From: Sandaracinaceae bacterium
GTDB lineage: Bacteria > Myxococcota_A > Polyangia > Polyangiales > Sandaracinaceae
Assembly (NCBI GenBank): GCA_019637095.1
Contig: JAHBWG010000052.1
Location: 1-64,000 of the forward strand
Reading direction: 5' to 3'
DNA length: 64,000 bases
The translations under genes and the position numbers were made by a program. Positions 55,749-63,500 of this stretch are shown in pieces. Position 1 is the first letter of the stretch; the number at the start of each line of letters is the position of its first letter. The notes below the pieces were generated by a model, which saw only the letters and a list, made by a program, of their open reading frames with translations, did not search any database and had not been told where the DNA came from.

Positions 55749-56243
55749 TCACTCGCAGGCGCCGGGGCCGTCCACCAACGGGCCGCCCGCGCCGCAGCGG
55801 TAGCGGCACGTCGTCCCGCTCTCGCAGGCGACCGTGCACGCGCCGAGGCAGGTGATCTCGCACATGGCGCGGTCGCGACAGTTCATCGCGGAGCGCGCGC
55901 CGATCTCGACGACGCAGGTGCTCGCGGTGCAACGAACGTTGCTGTCGTCGCCCGCGTAGAGCGTGCAGTCGGTGTCCTCGACGCACTCGAGGTTGCAGGC
56001 GTTCCCGCAGGCCGCGGCGCAGGTGGAGTCCTCGCGGCAGTGGAAGCGACAGCCGTCGCCGCACCGGAGCGCGCACTCGGAGCGCGAGGCGCAGGTGCAG
56101 TCGTCCGGGTTGGTGCACGTGCACGCCGGGCCGGGGCACGGCGGCAGGTCGGGCAGGACCGGCCCGGCGCTGCAGCCGGCGACGAGCGCCGCGCCGAGCG
56201 CGACGAGCAAGACGAGGAGGGAGGACGCGGAGGGGGCGTTCAT
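55749..56243 (-). CDS. cysteine-rich lipoprotein
   Basis: 164 residues. Signal with lipobox LVAGC. Dense cysteine pairs throughout (CPGPACTCTNPDDCTCASRSEC, CGDGCRFHCREDSTC, CGNACNLEC). The mature protein is likely a small, heavily disulfide-bonded surface protein. No family name known to me. A short divergent-free gap separates it from the next gene set. Confidence 0.7.
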   Translation of the reverse strand: MNAPSASSLLVLLVALGAALVAGCSAGPVLPDLPPCPGPACTCTNPDDCTCASRSECALRCGDGCRFHCREDSTCAAACGNACNLECVEDTDCTLYAGDDSNVRCTASTCVVEIGARSAMNCRDRAMCEITCLGACTVACESGTTCRYRCGAGGPLVDGPGACE

Positions 56244-56294
56244 GGCCCATGAGTCACCAATGGGCGGCGCCGTGATCAGAAAAAACGGGAGGGG

Positions 56295-56840
56295 TCAGCA
56301 CGCGTCCGCCGCGACACAGACGAGATCGAGGGGGCGGCCCGGGTAACCGCAGCACGCCGACGCGCAGGCGTCGCACGCCTCGACGGGGACGAAGGCGCGG
56401 CAGCGCCCGTCCACGCAGACCTGATCGGACCCGCACGGGCGGCCGCACTCCCCGCAGTGGAGCGGGTGGCGCGAGACGTCGACGCAGCCATCTTCGCACT
56501 CGAGGCGTCCCGCCGCGCACGTCGCGACGCACGCGCCGTCCTCGCAGCGCGCCGGGCAGTCGATCCGGTCGGCGCCGCAGCGATCGCCGTCCGCGTCCAC
56601 GTCGACGCACCGCTCGCCGATCCGCACGAGGCGCTCGCGACACACGCACGCGCCGGCGACGCAGTACTCGTCGTCCTCGCACCGGCGCGCGTCGTCGCCG
56701 CACCGGCGCGGATCGCGCGCCCGCAGATCGGCGCCGGCGTCGCGCGGCGCGCAGGCGTCGCACCCGCCGAACAGGTCGACGCGCTGCTCGCCGCAGCCCG
56801 CGAACAGCACGAGCGCCGCCGCGATCGTCGCGCGCCTCAC
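56295..56840 (-). CDS. cysteine-rich lipoprotein of the first sigma/FecR locus
   Basis: 181 residues from a GTG overlapping the FecR gene stop by 4 bases. Lipobox LFAGC; cysteine modules include CDACAPRDAG, CEDDEYCVAGACVCRE and CEDGCVDVSRHPLHCGECGRPCG, resembling the modules of the long cysteine-repeat lipoprotein at 33.7-35.3 kb. As last gene of the sigma/FecR operon it may be its output or sensory partner on the surface. Confidence 0.75.
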   Translation of the reverse strand: MRRATIAAALVLFAGCGEQRVDLFGGCDACAPRDAGADLRARDPRRCGDDARRCEDDEYCVAGACVCRERLVRIGERCVDVDADGDRCGADRIDCPARCEDGACVATCAAGRLECEDGCVDVSRHPLHCGECGRPCGSDQVCVDGRCRAFVPVEACDACASACCGYPGRPLDLVCVAADAC

Positions 56841-58104
56841 GGCGCCTCGGCCGCCGCGCGCGCCTGCGGCGAGCCCGGGAAGCGCGCCCGCAGGCGCGCG
56901 AGCGCGGCCTCCGCCGCCCGCGGCTCGCCGAGCGCGCGCGCCGCCTCGGCCTCGATCCACAGGGCCTCCGCCGCGAGCCGGCCGTCGGGGAAGCGGCGCT
57001 GGTGGGCGCGCGTCGCCTCGCGCGCGCCGGCGGCGTCTCCGCCGCGGAGCGTGAGCCGCGCGAGCCGGATCCACGCGGCCTCGGCGAGCGCGCCGGAGCC
57101 CGCGCCGACGGACTCGAACAGCGCGCGCGCCTCCGCGCGCTCGCCGGATCGCCACCGCGCCTCGGCGCGCGCGAGGCGCGCGTGCGGGTCCTCGTCCTCG
57201 TCAGCGTGCGGCGCGTCGCGCGCGGCGCGCTTCGACGCGCGCGGACGGCCGTCACTGAGCGCGGGCTCCGGCGCGTCGAGCGCGCGCGGCGCCGGCTCGC
57301 CCGATCCCTCTGCTCCCTCTGCTCCCTCTGCGCGCGCGCTCGTGGGCGCGTCGGCGGCGGCCAGCGGGCCGCCCCGGATCCACCGCTCGCCGGTGCGCAG
57401 GTGCAGCTCGCGCTCCTCGGGCGCGCGCACCACGACGTGCCCGTGCGCGACGCGCACCTCGACGTCGGTCGACGAGCGGCGCACCTCGAAGCGCGTCCCG
57501 CGCACCTCGACGGTGACCTCGCCGGCGCGCACGCGCAGGGTCCCGCCCCCGAGGTCGCGCGCGTGCACGTCCACGGTGCCCTCGCCGAGGACGAGCTCCG
57601 TGGTGCAGCCGTCCGCCGCGCCGAGCGCGAGCGGCGCGTCTGCCGACGCCTCGCCGCGAGGGCCGAGCGCGACGCGATCCTCCACGACGCGCGCGGCCGG
57701 CCACGCGGCGCACGCGGGGAGCGATCCCGGCGCGCGCGGCGGCGCGCTCGGCGGCTCCCCGCGACCGAAGAGCCCCCACGCGACCGCCGCCGCGGCGCGA
57801 CACCGAAACGCCACGCCGAGCGCGAGGGGCGCGCAGGCGCCGCGCGGAACGCCGCCACCGCCTCGGCCTCGACGCGCGCCAAGATCCGCGCCCGCGCGGC
57901 GTCGTCGAGGCGCGGCGCGCCGAGGGTGGCCAGCTCGTGGAGCCGGTCGCGCAGATCGTCCTCGTCCGCGGCCGCGGCGACGAGCGCCGGGCCCTCGGCC
58001 TCGACGCGCGCGAGCGCGCGGGAGCGCGCCTCCGCGCTCAGGCGCGGCGCCGCGTCGTCGGCGAGCGCGGCGAGGCGCCGCCGGAGCGCGTCGTCGTCGC
58101 TCAC
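56837..58104 (-). CDS. FecR-domain/TPR membrane protein (anti-sigma type), frame change
   Basis: The GTGA at 58104 overlaps the sigma-factor stop and begins SDDDALRRRLAALADDAAPRL, then DRLHELATLGAPRLDDAARARIL, an anti-sigma-like cytoplasmic head. Near 57,800 a one-base change in a GC-rich stretch is needed to enter the next frame, where CRAAAAVAWGLFGRG (short membrane helix), a FecR domain (VEVRGTRFEVRRSSTDVEVRV) and a C-terminal TPR region follow, ending at 56837. The second locus encodes the same plan in one frame, which supports a frame error or mutation here. Should bind the ECF sigma factor and relay envelope signals. Confidence 0.72.
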
Positions 58105-58688
58105 CGGTCCTCCAACAGCGCCCGGACGCGCGGGCTCGCCATGAGCTCGTGGCGCGCGGCGTGGATGCGCGAGCGGACCGTGTGGACGGGGGCCTCCGTC
58201 AGCTCGGCGATCTCCTCGGGGCTCATCCCGTCGAGCGCCCAGAGCGTGAAGGCGACCCGCTTCTTGGGCGTGAGCCGGTCGAGCGCGGCGTGCAGCAACC
58301 GGAAGCGCTCCTGCGCGGCGACCCTCGCCTCGGGTCCCACCTCGGGGGACGCGGCGTCCTCGTCCGACAGGGGCGCGCGCCGCGCGTCGAACGCGCTCGG
58401 GCGCAGCGCGCGCCGCGCCACGCGGACCGTGATGCCGCCGACGAACGTCGAGAACCGGCTCTCCTCGCGGAACGCGGGGAGCGCGCGGCACAGCTCCAGG
58501 AACACGCTCTGGACGAGGTCCTCGAAGTCGCGGCGCGGGCCCAGGATGCGGCCGAGCAGCCGCTCGACGCGCGGGAGCTCGCGCTCGGCCAACGCGCGCA
58601 GCGCGGGCCCGTCGCCGGCCTTCGCGCGGCGCACGAGGTCGGCCTCCGAGCCAGCGAGCGCGAGCGACACCGGGGCGGGCACGCTCAT
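58101..58688 (-). CDS. ECF sigma factor (first locus)
   Basis: 195 residues from ATG 58688. Sigma region 2 (LVRRAKAGDGPALRALAE, FEDLVQSVFLELCRALPAF) and region 4 (LDRLTPKKRVAFTLWALDGMSPEEIAELTEAPVHTVRSRIHAAR) are evident. Overlaps the FecR gene. It presumably directs transcription of envelope genes when released by the FecR/anti-sigma protein. Lies 43 bases downstream of the secreted-protein gene on the same strand. Confidence 0.92.
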   Translation of the reverse strand: MSVPAPVSLALAGSEADLVRRAKAGDGPALRALAERELPRVERLLGRILGPRRDFEDLVQSVFLELCRALPAFREESRFSTFVGGITVRVARRALRPSAFDARRAPLSDEDAASPEVGPEARVAAQERFRLLHAALDRLTPKKRVAFTLWALDGMSPEEIAELTEAPVHTVRSRIHAARHELMASPRVRALLEDR

Positions 58689-58731
58689 GAGTCGCCCGAC
58701 GCGCCCGCCGCGATCAGAGAAAACGCCCCGG

Positions 58732-59781
58732 TCACTCGAAGCACCACGCGAGCCCGAGCCGCCCCCCGACCCGCACCGGCCCCTCGGCGAGGACGCGCGC
58801 GCCGTCGGCGACGAGGGTGACCGGCGCCGGCAGCACGTCCGCCCCGAGCTCGAGCGTGAGCTCGAGCCCCGCCACCAGCGGCTGGCGCCCCTCGAGCGAG
58901 ACCCCGAGGTGCCAGCCCGCGCGCGCGTGCTCCCCACCCTGCGTTCCGTCGGCGCGCGAGGCGCTCGCGACGACCGCCGCCGCCCCCGCGCGCGCGTGGC
59001 CGAGGAGGCGCGTGCGCGCCGGCCCGAGCTCGCCGCCGACGCTGATCCGTGCGCCCACCTCGTAGCGCGCGTAGCGCACGTCGAGGCCCTCCGACGTCGC
59101 CGCGTATGCGCCGAGCCCCGACGCGTAGAGCGCGCCGCCGACGACCCACCCCTCGCCGTCGGGACGGCCCACGAGCTCGACGAAGAGCGCCGGCTGCGCG
59201 AGCCACGGCCCGCCCGCGCTCGCCGCTCCCCACACCTCCGCGCCCACGCCCACCGTGACCGCGAGCGCCGCGGGCGCGCTCCGGGCCTCGCGGGTCGTCG
59301 GCGCCGGCGCCGGCTGCGCCGGTGGCTCGGGCGCCGGATCGGGCGCCGGATCCGGCGCGGGCGGCGCTGGCTCGACCGTCGCGCCGACGCTCCGCGGATC
59401 GGCGCCCGTCCGCGCGACCTCGAGGAGCTCGGCGGCCACCACCGCGAGCGCGTAGCCGTCCTCTTGCGCCTCGAAGCGCCGCTCGAGCGTGACGCCGGTG
59501 CGCCGCGACCAGACCCGCACGAGCGGCGCGTCGGCGTCGACGGTGTCGATGGTGACGAGCCAATCGACGTCCGCCGGGATCGTCGGGGGCGCCTCGTCGA
59601 ACCGACGCGCCGCGTCGAGCGCGACGAACGTCGCGAAGGCGCCGGCTGCCTCCGCCGCGCGCGCGCCGCGCGTGACCAGCGCCACCGCGTCGCTCGTCTG
59701 CGCGCGCGCGATCCCGCCGCCGAGCAGCACCACCGCGAGAGCACCGATCCACTTGGAGCGCCGAGAAGCCTCGGAGCGCAA
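58732..59781 (-). CDS. exported beta-rich protein of the first sigma/FecR locus
   Basis: About 349 residues from TTG 59781; only TTG starts are available (also 59865), and the chosen one precedes the signal KWIGALAVVLLGGGIARAQ directly. The N-terminal part (RRTGVTLERRFEAQEDGYALAVVAAELLEVA) matches the protein at 62526 in pattern. A Pro-rich PAPDPAPDPAPEPPAQP linker and a beta-barrel-like C-terminus (RYARYEVGARISVGGEL, GRLGLAWCFE) follow. Likely an outer-membrane component of the signalling module. Confidence 0.65.
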   Translation of the reverse strand: MRSEASRRSKWIGALAVVLLGGGIARAQTSDAVALVTRGARAAEAAGAFATFVALDAARRFDEAPPTIPADVDWLVTIDTVDADAPLVRVWSRRTGVTLERRFEAQEDGYALAVVAAELLEVARTGADPRSVGATVEPAPPAPDPAPDPAPEPPAQPAPAPTTREARSAPAALAVTVGVGAEVWGAASAGGPWLAQPALFVELVGRPDGEGWVVGGALYASGLGAYAATSEGLDVRYARYEVGARISVGGELGPARTRLLGHARAGAAAVVASASRADGTQGGEHARAGWHLGVSLEGRQPLVAGLELTLELGADVLPAPVTLVADGARVLAEGPVRVGGRLGLAWCFE

Positions 59782-59961
59782 CGGGCTTCTGGCGTGGTCC
59801 GACGCGACGAGGAGCGGCGGGCCGCGCCGGGAACCCCTTCCGCCCGCGGATGCCGGCGGTCTCAAAGGAATCGGTACTCTCCTGCCCAGCGCGCCACGCG
59901 CTCGAACCGTAACGCGGCGACGACGCCACGGCAGCCTCGTCGGCGCGCGCCGTGACGCCGG

Positions 59962-60615
59962 TCAGATGCCGTGTGGCTCGGCGCGCAGCGGCGAGAGGAT
60001 GACGAGCGCCCCGTTCGTGCACCACGCGCTGAGGTAGTGGTAGGCGCCGTCCTCCGTGTCCGCCCGGACCCGGCCTTCGCACAAGCTCGCGCCGGTGCAG
60101 GGGTCGCCGGCGAAGCCCGCGGCGAGCGCGGCGTCGCACCCGCCCGGCGCGTCGAGCGACCAGGACGCCGACGACGCGGGGTCGCGCGGCGCGCTCGCGC
60201 CCGGGCACAGGTGCATCCGAACCGAGCTGACCTCGATCTCCCCGGTGTCCGGCGAGACGAAGTGGCTGCAGTTCACCTCGGCGCGGAGGCAGTCGTCCTC
60301 GACCATCCGCGCGGGCTCGGGCGCGACGCACGCGTCCTCGAGGACCATGGTCTCGGTGTGGCGCGTGAGGCGGCCGCTCACGCAGAGCGCCAGCTCGTAG
60401 ACGTAGCTGGTGGGCAGCGGCTCGCCGCAGCCGCCGACCCCTTCGCCGAAGTCGCACGGCTCGTTCGTGCGCCCGTACCGCAGCGCGGCCGTGCAGTCCG
60501 TCCACGGCCCGCCGCGCGCCGACTCGTCCGTCTCGAGCGCGTCGTGCGTGGCGGGCTCGAGGCATCCGTCGACGCCGAGGAGCGCGAGCGCGAAGAGGAG
60601 GGTGTGCTTCATCAT
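59962..60615 (-). CDS. cysteine-containing lipoprotein between the two sigma loci
   Basis: 217 residues; two ATGs at the start (60615). Signal with lipobox DGC (LLFALALLGVDGCLEP). Several cysteines (CTAALRYG, NEPCDFGEGVGGC, NCSHFVSPDTGEIE, CEGRVRADT, YLSAWCTNG). Sits between the two head-to-head sigma/FecR loci and could belong to either. No known family. Confidence 0.65.
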   Translation of the reverse strand: MMKHTLLFALALLGVDGCLEPATHDALETDESARGGPWTDCTAALRYGRTNEPCDFGEGVGGCGEPLPTSYVYELALCVSGRLTRHTETMVLEDACVAPEPARMVEDDCLRAEVNCSHFVSPDTGEIEVSSVRMHLCPGASAPRDPASSASWSLDAPGGCDAALAAGFAGDPCTGASLCEGRVRADTEDGAYHYLSAWCTNGALVILSPLRAEPHGI

Positions 60616-60859
60616 GTTCGTGACCAGGCCTTTCGCATGCCGGGGCGCCGTTCGCCGCGGTCGACGGGCAGGGCCGGCCCAGCGCTCGAGCGGCTCAAGT
60701 CTCTTCATTCGAGCCGGTTGCGGGCGCCCGTGGCCCCATTCCGAGATGACCCACTCGGCGAGCCGCGAACGATCCGCACCGTCCGCGCATCGAGTGGGGC
60801 GTGAGACCGGCGGGCGCGATGGCGAGCCGGTTCGGGGCGCTGGAGGCCCCGACCTCGTG

Positions 60860-61468
60860 ATGAGCACGCGCATCTCCCGGATCCCTGCCGCGCCGCCGCA
60901 GGTCGAGCCGCTGCGGGCGGAGCCGATCACGGACGCGGAGCTCGTGCGCCGCGCGCTCGAAGGCGACCGCTGGGCCGAGGGCGCGATCTACCGCCGCTAC
61001 GCGCCGCTCGTCGCGAACCTCGCGGGGCGTCTGCTCGCGCGGCACGCCGACGCGATGGACGTGCTGCAGGACGTGTTCGTCGGAGCGCTCGGCGAGCTCG
61101 GCGCGCTGCGCGATCCGAACGCGCTCCGGCCCTGGCTGCTGCGTCGCACCGTGCGGCAGGTCCACCGCGTGTTCCGGCGCCGCCGGCTCCGGCGCGTGCT
61201 CGGGCTCGACCGCGGCGAGATCGACCTCCCGCTCGACGCGCTCGCCGACCCGAGCGCCTCGCCCGAGACGCACGCCGAGCTCGCGCGGATCGCGCGCGTG
61301 CTCGCGACGCTCTCCGACCGGCAGCGGATCGCGTGGGTGCTGCACCGGGTCGAGGGCGAGACGCTGCCCGCCGTCGCCGACGCGTGCGGGGTCTCGCTCG
61401 CCACCGTCAAGCGCGAGATCGCCGCGGCGCAGCTCACGCTCGAGGCCCACGCGCGGAGGAGCCGATGA
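60860..61468 (+). CDS. ECF sigma factor (second locus)
   Basis: 202 residues from ATG 60860. Region 2 (LVRRALEGDRWAEGAIYRRYAPLVANLAG, DAMDVLQDVFVGALGELGALRD) and region 4 (LATLSDRQRIAWVLHRVEGETLPAVADACGVSLATVKREIAAAQ) are clear. Its stop overlaps the FecR-type ATG by 4 bases. It is a paralogue of the sigma factor at 58101 in arrangement, though its sequence is quite diverged. Confidence 0.92.
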   Translation: MSTRISRIPAAPPQVEPLRAEPITDAELVRRALEGDRWAEGAIYRRYAPLVANLAGRLLARHADAMDVLQDVFVGALGELGALRDPNALRPWLLRRTVRQVHRVFRRRRLRRVLGLDRGEIDLPLDALADPSASPETHAELARIARVLATLSDRQRIAWVLHRVEGETLPAVADACGVSLATVKREIAAAQLTLEAHARRSR

Positions 61469-62529
61469 AGCCCGAGCGCGACGAAGCGCCGCTCGGCGCC
61501 GCGCTGCGCGACGTGGCGAGCGAGGAGGACCTCGCGACGGCGTGGGACGCGATCGAGCGCGCCCGCGTCCCGGCGCGTCGCCCTCGCCTGCGCGCCGGCG
61601 GGATCGCCCTCGCCGCGCTGGCCGCGGCGGCCGCGCTCGCGCTGTTCGCCGGGCGTCCGACGGGCGCACCGCCCGGCCCGCTCGCGGTCGCCGGCGGCGC
61701 GCCTCTGCGCGCGATCGCGCCGGCGAGCCACGTCGCGCTCGGCGACGGATCGGGCATCGAGACGGGCGACGACGCCGCGCTCGAGGTGCTCGAGAACCAG
61801 GCGGGGCTCCTCGCGCTGCACCTGACGCGCGGCCGCGCCCGCTTTCGGGTGACCCCGGGCACCGGGCGGCGCTGGCGCGTGGAGGCGAGCGGGCTGAGCG
61901 TCGAGGTCGTCGGCACCGTCTTCGTCGTCGAGCGCACGCCCGACGAGGTGCGCGTCGCCGTGGAGCGCGGGGCGGTCGTCGTGCGCGGGGACGGCGTCCC
62001 GGATGGCGTCCGGCGGCTCGCGGCAGGCGAGTCGATCGCGGTGCCGCGCGCGCGCGCGACGACGACGCCCGACACGACGGCGCCCGAGGCGCCGCCGGCG
62101 ATCGCGCGAGCGGCGGAGGCCACGGGGACTCCTGAGACGACGCGCGAGACGGAGGAGGCGGCGCTCGCGCCGCTCCGCGGCGAGCCGCGTGGGAGGGCCG
62201 ACCCGCCCGCTCCCTCGCGATCGCCGCCGGACCTCGCGGCCGGCGCGGAGCCCGCGTGGCAGAGCCCCGCGTCGCTCATGATCGCCGCGGACGCGGCGCG
62301 CGCGCGCGGCGACGCGAGCGAGGCGATCGCCACCTTCGACCGGATCGCGCGCGAGCATCCCTCGAGCGCGGAGGCGCCGCTGGCCGCCTTCACCGCGGCG
62401 AGGCTCCTCGCCCGACGCGGCCGCGCCGAGGCGGCGCGCGCTCGCTATCGACGCGCGCTCGAGCTCGGGTTGCCACCGGAGCTCGCCGAAGATGCGCGGC
62501 GCGCGCTCGAGGAGCCGGACGCGCCTTGA
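61465..62529 (+). CDS. FecR-domain/TPR membrane protein (second locus)
   Basis: 354 residues from ATG with GGAGGA, overlapping the sigma stop. Short cytoplasmic head (DVASEEDLATAWDAIERARV), one membrane helix (IALAALAAAAALALFAG), FecR domain (SVEVVGTVFVVERTPDEVRVAVERGAVVV), a Thr/Pro-rich linker, and a C-terminal TPR-like region (ARARGDASEAIATFDRIAREHPSSAEAP). This is an anti-sigma-type regulator for the adjacent ECF factor. In contrast to classical FecR loci, no TonB-dependent receptor accompanies it. Confidence 0.85.
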   Translation: MKPERDEAPLGAALRDVASEEDLATAWDAIERARVPARRPRLRAGGIALAALAAAAALALFAGRPTGAPPGPLAVAGGAPLRAIAPASHVALGDGSGIETGDDAALEVLENQAGLLALHLTRGRARFRVTPGTGRRWRVEASGLSVEVVGTVFVVERTPDEVRVAVERGAVVVRGDGVPDGVRRLAAGESIAVPRARATTTPDTTAPEAPPAIARAAEATGTPETTRETEEAALAPLRGEPRGRADPPAPSRSPPDLAAGAEPAWQSPASLMIAADAARARGDASEAIATFDRIAREHPSSAEAPLAAFTAARLLARRGRAEAARARYRRALELGLPPELAEDARRALEEPDAP

Positions 62530-63500
62530 GGTCGCTCGCGCTCCTCGCGGCGATCGCCCTCGGCCCGTCGATCGCGAGCGCCCAAGACGATCTTCTCGTC
62601 GTGATCGATCACTGCGATGAGGTCGGGCTCGACGAGGGCGAGCTCGCGCGAGCCGTCACCTTGGAGACGGCGGCCTCGCCGCGATCGGTGCGGTTGGCGA
62701 TCGCGATCGAGTGCGCGCCGACGTCCGCGCGGATCGTCGTCGAGGACGCGAGCGCCGAGGTCCGCATCGAGCGCCGGGTCGGGTTGGCGGAGACCCCCGA
62801 GCACCTGCGCAGTCGCGTGGTCGCGCTCGTCGCGGCGGAGCTCGTCGAGGCGGCGATCCTCGCGGGCGGCGCGGCCGGGCGCGTGGCTCCCCGAGGCGAG
62901 CCGAGCGCGAGCGAGCCGGCGGAGGCGGAGCCCGCCGCGGTCGCGCCGTCCCTCGACGCCGCACCCGTCTCGGGGACGACGCCTGCCGCGCCACCCGCGA
63001 CCGACGACGGCGCGCGCGTCGAGCTCTACGCCCTCGCCGGCGCCCGCACGCTCATCTGGGAGAGCGCGCTCGCGCTCGCGAGCGTCGAGCTCGGCCTCGC
63101 GTGGGACTGGCTCGGCGTCGCCGTACGGGTCGAGGGCGCGCCGCTCGGGCTCGCCGCCGCAGACCTCGACGTCGTCGCCGCGACGGCCTCCGCGGGCGCG
63201 TCGCTCACGCTGCGCGAGGGGCGGTTCGTCGGCGCGCTCGGCCTCTGGCTCGAGGGCGGCGCCGTCATCACCAGCGCTCGCTCCAACACCGCCGGCTACG
63301 TCGGGACCACCGAGGTGAGCCCCGCGCTCGGGGCCCACGTGCGCCTCGGCGGGAGCCTGCGCGTCGATCCGGCGGTCGCGTTCCAGGCCGCGATCGACGC
63401 CGGCGTCTTCTACGGCGTGCGCGTCGAGGCGCTCGACGACGTCGTGCACGTCTACGGCGCGTCGGTGCGCGTCGGGCTCGGCGTCGCGTTCGCGCCCTGA
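62526..63500 (+). CDS. exported beta-rich protein of the second sigma/FecR locus
   Basis: 324 residues from TTG overlapping the FecR stop by 4 bases. Signal SLALLAAIALGPSIASAQ. N-terminal domain (DDLLVVIDHCDEVGL, VRIERRVGLAETPEHLRSRVVALVAAELVEAA), then an Ala/Pro linker, then a beta-barrel-like region (VELYALAGARTLIW, LGLAWDWLGVAVRVEG, SVRVGLGVAFAP). Shares the RRxxxL...VVAAEL pattern and layout with the protein at 58732, so these are paralogues fixed in each module. Confidence 0.72.
   Translation: MRSLALLAAIALGPSIASAQDDLLVVIDHCDEVGLDEGELARAVTLETAASPRSVRLAIAIECAPTSARIVVEDASAEVRIERRVGLAETPEHLRSRVVALVAAELVEAAILAGGAAGRVAPRGEPSASEPAEAEPAAVAPSLDAAPVSGTTPAAPPATDDGARVELYALAGARTLIWESALALASVELGLAWDWLGVAVRVEGAPLGLAAADLDVVAATASAGASLTLREGRFVGALGLWLEGGAVITSARSNTAGYVGTTEVSPALGAHVRLGGSLRVDPAVAFQAAIDAGVFYGVRVEALDDVVHVYGASVRVGLGVAFAP

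Follow-up and report, generated by a model that had tools for sequence, protein, structure and literature searches.

Two divergent modules in the window

This study concerns two neighbouring gene modules in a 64,000-nucleotide stretch of the genome of a Sandaracinaceae bacterium (assembly GCA_019637095.1, contig JAHBWG010000052.1; hereafter, the window), each of which joins an extracytoplasmic function (ECF) sigma factor to a FecR-type regulator and an exported protein (Table 1). As an earlier note that was made from the sequence alone had described, the modules lie head-to-head on opposite strands; a lipoprotein gene sits between them. Their gene order is exported protein, sigma factor, FecR and lipoprotein in module 1 and sigma factor, FecR and exported protein in module 2. 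In both of them the stop codon of the sigma gene overlaps the FecR gene by 4 bp (GTGA in module 1 and ATGA in module 2), which agrees with that note, as does the cysteine-rich lipoprotein of the first locus. With a second cysteine-rich lipoprotein, a predicted target, the functional unit of module 1 extends leftward to 55749. The arrangement is repeated in dozens of related loci and is therefore not due to chance, and the window modules are members of a large, apparently undescribed myxobacterial family.

The sigma-70 regions 2 and 4 were found in both sigma factors using Pfam. FecR2 combines in one protein a cytoplasmic head, one hydrophobic helix (approximately residues 41-63), the FecR domain (PF04773, residues 89-171, E 4.6e-11) and a tail of tetratricopeptide repeats (TPRs; approximately residues 266-340), which is the layout that had been proposed for both regulators. 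In the case of FecR1, it is split over two frames; the head (from 58104) is in one, and the membrane helix, the FecR domain and the TPRs are in another, with a frameshift near 57790-57815, in a GC-rich run at the membrane helix. The FecR1 orthologues are intact (440-465 residues) and matched both window frames in a tblastn search; the break reflects an assembly error of one base or else a true lesion. The FecR1 head (57823-58104, minus strand) contains one helical motif twice (LRxRLxxLAxxxAPRLxxxARxRxLARVEAE), which suggests a tandem anti-sigma head. No Pfam match to STN or DUF4974 was found on FecR, and the TPR models come after the FecR domain instead. A profile search of FecR2 against the PDB returned only FecR-domain and TPR matches, with the putative anti-sigma factor 4m0h matching no more than the FecR domain and TPR proteins matching the part after it. 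At the sequence level, the proposal that fused TPRs replace the usual FecR tail is upheld.

TonB plugs (PF07715) occur in the ten genomes of the family (6-25 in each). None was found within 5 kb of the 68 FecR genes that were checked, the nearest being at 6.8 kb, and the modules do lack a neighbouring TonB receptor, as had been stated. STN (PF07660) was found once in this genome, in a protein that is PilQ by its sequence and its neighbours (aroK/aroB), and therefore no STN-bearing transducer was detected here.

Table 1. Positions of the modules, their genes and domains, and the associated lipoprotein genes and promoter-like elements in the window.
Feature	Position	Strand	Description and evidence
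Module 1	56295-59781	-	exported protein, ECF sigma, FecR, Cys-rich lipoprotein
Module 2	60860-63500	+	ECF sigma, FecR-TPR, exported protein
ECF sigma factor 1, 195 aa	58101-58688	-	Sigma70_r2 7.8e-14, r4_2 1.2e-13; clade with upstream exported partner
ECF sigma factor 2, 202 aa	60860-61468	+	Sigma70_r2 2.3e-13, r4_2 1.3e-8; clade with downstream exported partner
FecR1 (anti-sigma/sigma regulator)	56837-58104	-	PF04773 E 3.8e-7; FecR domain and TPR share a frame, head lies in a second one
FecR2	61465-62529	+	head, single helix, FecR domain, TPR tail; PF04773 4.6e-11, TPR models
Exported protein 1, 349 aa	58732-59781	-	signal peptide, ~100-residue N-domain, linker, beta-rich C-terminus (putative barrel); sequence
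Exported protein 2, 324 aa, proposed outer-membrane transducer	62526-63500	+	TTG start overlaps FecR2 stop; AlphaFold2 model, fold matches
Exported protein 2, predicted periplasmic N-terminal domain	62583-62882	+	beta-alpha-beta-beta-beta-alpha; AlphaFold2 pLDDT 91.5, pTM 0.84 (domain alone)
Exported protein 2, predicted 8-stranded outer-membrane beta-barrel	63006-63497	+	OmpW 8qxp Z 16.9, rmsd 2.3 over 162 residues
Cys-rich lipoprotein, 164 aa, predicted sigma1 target	55749-56243	-	perfect sigma1-type element just upstream
Cys-rich lipoprotein, operon member after FecR1	56295-56840	-	GTGA overlap with FecR1; orthologues in the same place in L056, L074, L075
Divergent lipoprotein, 217 aa, predicted sigma2 target	59962-60615	-	homologue L052.3 (9e-13), same divergent position beside sigma2 orthologue
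Promoter-like element TTYTCTGATCRCGGCG-N9-GGYGACTCATG, before lipoprotein gene 55749-56243	56248-56283	-	perfect copy
Promoter-like element TTYTCTGATCRCGGCG-N9-GGYGACTCATG, abutting sigma1 start codon	58686-58721	-	perfect match
Type-B promoter-like element TGAGCCGCTC, upstream of divergent lipoprotein	60688-60697	-	exact copy
Degenerate type-B element CGAGCCGGTT, first copy upstream of sigma2	60710-60719	+	sequence; tentative
Degenerate type-B element CGAGCCGGTT, second copy, 27 bp before sigma2 start	60823-60832	+	sequence; tentative
aa, amino acids; pLDDT, predicted local distance difference test; pTM, predicted template modelling score; rmsd, root-mean-square deviation (Å).

Distribution and co-occurrence of the family

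In the genome (9.25 Mb, 197 contigs), FecR was matched 16 times, mostly in sigma-FecR pairs. Reading 75 stretches from six genomes (this one and five relatives), in which the genes were called using a simple codon-based caller, revealed 60 sigma-FecR modules, 40 of them with the 4-bp overlap. An exported partner of 300-410 residues was present in 49 modules, directly after FecR in 31 (type B) and before the sigma factor in 18 (type A), and profile searches added a partner in L046, L047, L067 and L091, which raised the number to 53. Among the partnerless modules, L017 and L087 have a different neighbourhood (the FecR of L017 has a head that resembles a zinc finger), L088 is cut off by the end of its contig, and no exported partner was seen in L018 and L078.

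The same association was observed when either end of it was used for the search. Among the matches listed, nine loci were taken by sigma homology alone from Polyangia, Sandaracinaceae, Polyangiaceae, Myxococcaceae and other metagenome-assembled genomes of Myxococcota, and the gene after FecR fitted the type-B profile, which was built from the family only, in seven of the nine (E 1e-19 to 1e-36). The listed matches also included many unrelated ECF factors, and about ten myxobacterial loci among them were of use. A search of 282 Myxococcota genomes with the type-B exported profile alone gave matches in 26 genomes, in each of which the number of matches is to be read as "at least". A sigma gene was nearby in 38 and a FecR gene in 37 of the 40 matches that were inspected; the exceptions were L234 and L229, which are at contig ends, and L239, which has the sigma factor only. 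The exported proteins are thus not found mostly away from sigma and FecR genes, and they fall outside the families of Pfam and NCBIfam. Homologues of exported protein 1 were found in three of the nine other genomes of the family, in all cases beside a sigma factor, FecR and the same cysteine-rich lipoprotein. The sigma-FecR-exported association is a hallmark of the family. No paper on FecR and sigma factors of myxobacteria was found in the open-access literature, and this paralogous FecI/FecR-like family is apparently undescribed.

Over 22 type-B modules, the correlation of the distances was 0.80 between the sigma factor and FecR, 0.56 between the exported protein and the TPR tail of FecR and 0.33 between the exported protein and the FecR domain. 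That the exported distances track the TPR tail above the FecR domain is only a hint that the TPRs may be the docking site.

A phylogenetic tree of 59 sigma factors has two sides (support 100/99), one of which holds nearly all of the type-B modules (29 of 32 rows) and the other all of the type-A modules; the two labels required seven changes on the tree compared to 24 in shuffles. The two sigma factors of the window are on opposite sides. A recent tandem duplication of the window modules, which the wording of the earlier note ("twice side by side") had implied, is rejected in view of these two old clades. These sigma groups may already be numbered in the large ECF classification by Casas-Pastor and colleagues.

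A second kind of FecR (~1440-1460 residues), which has VIT/VWA-like sequence past the FecR domain, was observed after an ECF sigma factor in L016, L039, L058, L077 and L092 and represents a different system.

Sequence and predicted structure of the exported proteins

In both exported proteins, a signal peptide is followed by an N-terminal domain, a linker rich in Pro and Ala and a C-terminus rich in beta structure, and so the description of an exported two-part beta-rich protein in both loci holds. Neither has a match to a Pfam or NCBIfam family. The further claim that they share the same N-terminal pattern stands in part: the order of strands and helices is alike by eye, but BLAST gave no match between the two proteins and their profile comparison is weak. 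A profile score of 95%, which at first suggested homology of the two, fell to 11.5% (P 0.0026) once the signal peptide had been removed, and they may or may not share a common ancestor. Searches of the proteins of this genome with either of them returned only the queries because the exported proteins diverge too fast.

Exported protein 2 was modelled using AlphaFold2 and an alignment of nine sequences (the protein and eight natural relatives). The model has a confident alpha/beta N-terminal domain, a disordered linker and a C-terminus of eight antiparallel strands. When this C-terminus was compared with known structures (Foldseek, VIA-align), the top matches were nearly all outer-membrane barrels, among them OmpW (Z 16.9; 2.3 Å over 162 residues), NspA (15.9), OmpA (15.6), OprF (14.4) and Ail. 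By the predicted model only, the C-terminal half would be an eight-stranded transmembrane barrel, with the same fold as that of OmpW, OmpA, NspA and the OprF barrel. Unlike these proteins, exported protein 2 has no match to a sequence family, and its periplasmic domain precedes the barrel, whereas that of OmpA follows it. The family OMP_b-brl (PF13505) was matched in only one of 22 type-B members (E 0.0022) and in none of 16 type-A members.

The N-terminal domain has two cysteines that are nearly invariant across type B, which would fit a disulfide bond in a domain that is exported. Its fold matches were weak (HPF with Z 9.5, VtrA 9.1, TolB-N 7.6 and PqiC 7.2, then LptE and CsgG), with nothing at E<=0.001 in Foldseek, and are treated as a common arrangement. 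PF07660 had no match on the exported partner, for which the modelled order is beta-alpha-beta-beta-beta-alpha, and STN was not listed among the fold matches, even though an STN fold could still apply.

Comparison with known systems and proposed mechanism

FecR cell-surface signalling is understood as an add-on of TonB-dependent transport. The FecA-FecR-FecI, PupB-PupR-PupI and FoxA-FoxR-FoxI systems resemble the window modules in having an ECF sigma factor, a membrane regulator with a FecR domain, an overlapping operon and an outer-membrane partner with an N-terminal periplasmic domain. The structure of PupB/PupR shows such a domain with a FecR-type regulator (PMC7186176), and FoxA/FoxR signalling at the cell surface is a further parallel (PMC11637429). 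In contrast to these systems, the window modules have no TonB plug or large barrel, the small barrel cannot be a plugged transporter, no STN was found on either partner, and FecR ends in TPRs rather than in CJM and STN as in PupR; their predicted targets are lipoproteins and not iron uptake genes. Two features of FecR signalling, i.e., the ECF sigma regions 2 and 4 and a single-pass FecR beside the sigma factor (for FecR1, only across the frameshift), are present. Since two defining features, a TonB transducer and an STN domain on FecR, were looked for and neither was found, we do not claim the modules as members of FecI/FecR/FecA signalling; they are best read, by analogy, as a variant that would work like FecR-type cell-surface signalling.

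A receptor that is not a TonB-dependent transporter has a precedent in the PUMA3 system (VreA-VreR-VreI) of Pseudomonas aeruginosa (PMC2729926). VreA, however, combines a signalling domain of the STN type with a TolA/TonB-like C-terminal domain and lacks a barrel, whereas a barrel is predicted for the window modules; no STN or TonB_C match was found in them using Pfam, and the modelled C-terminus is a barrel. In Leptospira, the FecR-like regulator of LIC_12757/LIC_12756 controls an ECF sigma factor without a known signalling TonB receptor (PMC12155086); unlike in the window modules, no exported barrel partner has been described there.

On balance, we favour the reading in which each module is a transmembrane signalling relay that would operate in the manner of FecA-FecR-FecI, dispense with the TonB-dependent transporter and use a small, non-TonB barrel as the transducer. 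The exported protein would be held in the outer membrane by this barrel (modelled for exported protein 2 only), with its loops outward, and a flexible linker would tether its periplasmic N-terminal domain. This domain would dock on the periplasmic part of FecR, i.e., the FecR domain and the TPR tail, in which the TPRs would stand in for the STN subdomain, and would bind or protect that part until a signal allows FecR to be processed, in analogy to PupB/PupR and FoxA/FoxR. A ligand or a surface event at the barrel would alter the contact, after which FecR would be cleaved or rearranged and its cytoplasmic head would release or activate the sigma factor, which would transcribe the operon to which it belongs and the genes of surface lipoproteins, whether adjacent or distant. 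It is from the known systems that we infer the docking, the contact, the signal, the proteolysis and the direction of signalling. Through the modules, the cell can probably detect some cue at its surface and induce surface lipoproteins in response. The claim that the exported protein takes the place of the TonB receptor holds as far as a nearly constant, plugless partner beside the sigma factor and FecR is concerned; the signalling role itself would follow by analogy.

Several observations weigh against this reading. A classical receptor gene is also a target of its sigma factor, so that co-occurrence by itself cannot identify the exported protein as the input. Joint inheritance may be all that the mirror-tree correlations reflect, and because FecR1 is frameshifted in the assembly, module 1 may here be either a broken copy or a misassembly. 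The confidence of the barrel is moderate, with a mean pLDDT of 69 and a pTM of 0.41 for the whole model of exported protein 2, and an amphipathicity scan of the C-termini of both exported proteins was no better than shuffles. The last two points, together with the small alignment and the single Pfam match to OMP_b-brl, would also suit exported proteins that are soluble and secreted, with the barrel model being an artefact of beta-rich, low-complexity sequence. We regard this as very improbable in view of the eight antiparallel strands and the close match to a crystal structure among top matches that are nearly all outer-membrane barrels.

If the exported barrel were only an output, FecR-TPR would itself sense a periplasmic signal and the sigma factor would make the barrel protein and the lipoproteins as effectors. 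Such a design would account for the position of the exported gene in the sigma operon, where it is co-expressed, and for L018 and L078; the Leptospira pair, which works with no receptor identified, is in line with it (PMC12155086). We nevertheless consider it unlikely because the lipoprotein companions differ between loci while the exported protein is nearly always kept, and because a periplasmic domain joined to an outer-membrane barrel is the layout that a transducer needs. An outer-membrane assembly sentinel, in which the barrel would report failed folding or lipid asymmetry and the N-terminal domain would occupy FecR until failure, following the logic of sigma-E/RseA, appears improbable. 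Although a small barrel of no recognisable ligand-binding family would be suitable for this task, approximately ten diverged copies per genome with different barrels would be excessive for a general monitor, and the predicted targets are individual lipoproteins rather than chaperones or proteases.

What sets the proposed transducer apart is that each genome has the sigma/FecR core in many copies whose partner, a small barrel, is unable to be a TonB transporter; if this barrel signals, sensing at the outer membrane would be uncoupled from transport and its energy input. More tentatively, and with doubt prevailing, the approximately ten modules per genome in the family may form a large repertoire of one-signal-one-sigma receptors of Myxococcota, in which a non-transport eight-stranded barrel would signal through a new periplasmic domain to FecR-TPR and control surface lipoproteins, so that prey, kin or surface polymers could be sensed by an array of such receptors. 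Myxobacteria would thereby gain candidate sensors of contact or polymers.

Promoter-like elements and companion lipoproteins

The sigma1-type element occurs twice without a mismatch in the 9.25-Mb genome and once with three mismatches, and its reversed control does not occur at all. Because the two window copies served to define the pattern, they match it necessarily, and the evidence lies in its rarity and in the third site. This copy (G000:C165:25650, locus L252), which is outside the window, is just before a cysteine-rich lipoprotein gene (1534-2202) that is homologous to 55749-56243 (2e-13) and has its closest relatives (4e-58) at the end of the same module in G005 and G006; the L252 lipoprotein is a possible trans target. 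Homologues of the lipoprotein 55749-56243 itself end the same module in L056, L074 and L075 and are also found in module L020.

For type B, TGAGCCGNTC had 26 exact copies in 31 loci compared to three in one shuffle of those loci. It lies in the 200 bp preceding 11 of 31 sigma genes and six of 55 lipoprotein genes, before none of 62 FecR or exported genes and before none of 18 type-A sigma genes. In the window alone, three exact type-B matches are within chance, as is a single 10-mer, and the significance rests on the family. Both kinds of elements are putative promoters, and they offer a testable regulon.

The lipoprotein 56295-56840 scored 79.5 bits against the MXAN_6577-like cysteine-rich proteins (NF041328), which is below the cut-off of 100, and the divergent lipoprotein 59962-60615 had no match in Pfam or NCBIfam. 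Two recurrent companions were observed in the related loci. In L012, L044, L063, L076 and L089, type-A modules are followed by a lipoprotein of 390-417 residues with a VWA-like motif (DLLLVVDNSNSM), and in L013, L079, L095 and L096, type-B modules have an Asp-rich, calcium-repeat-like lipoprotein of approximately 660 residues just upstream of the sigma factor.

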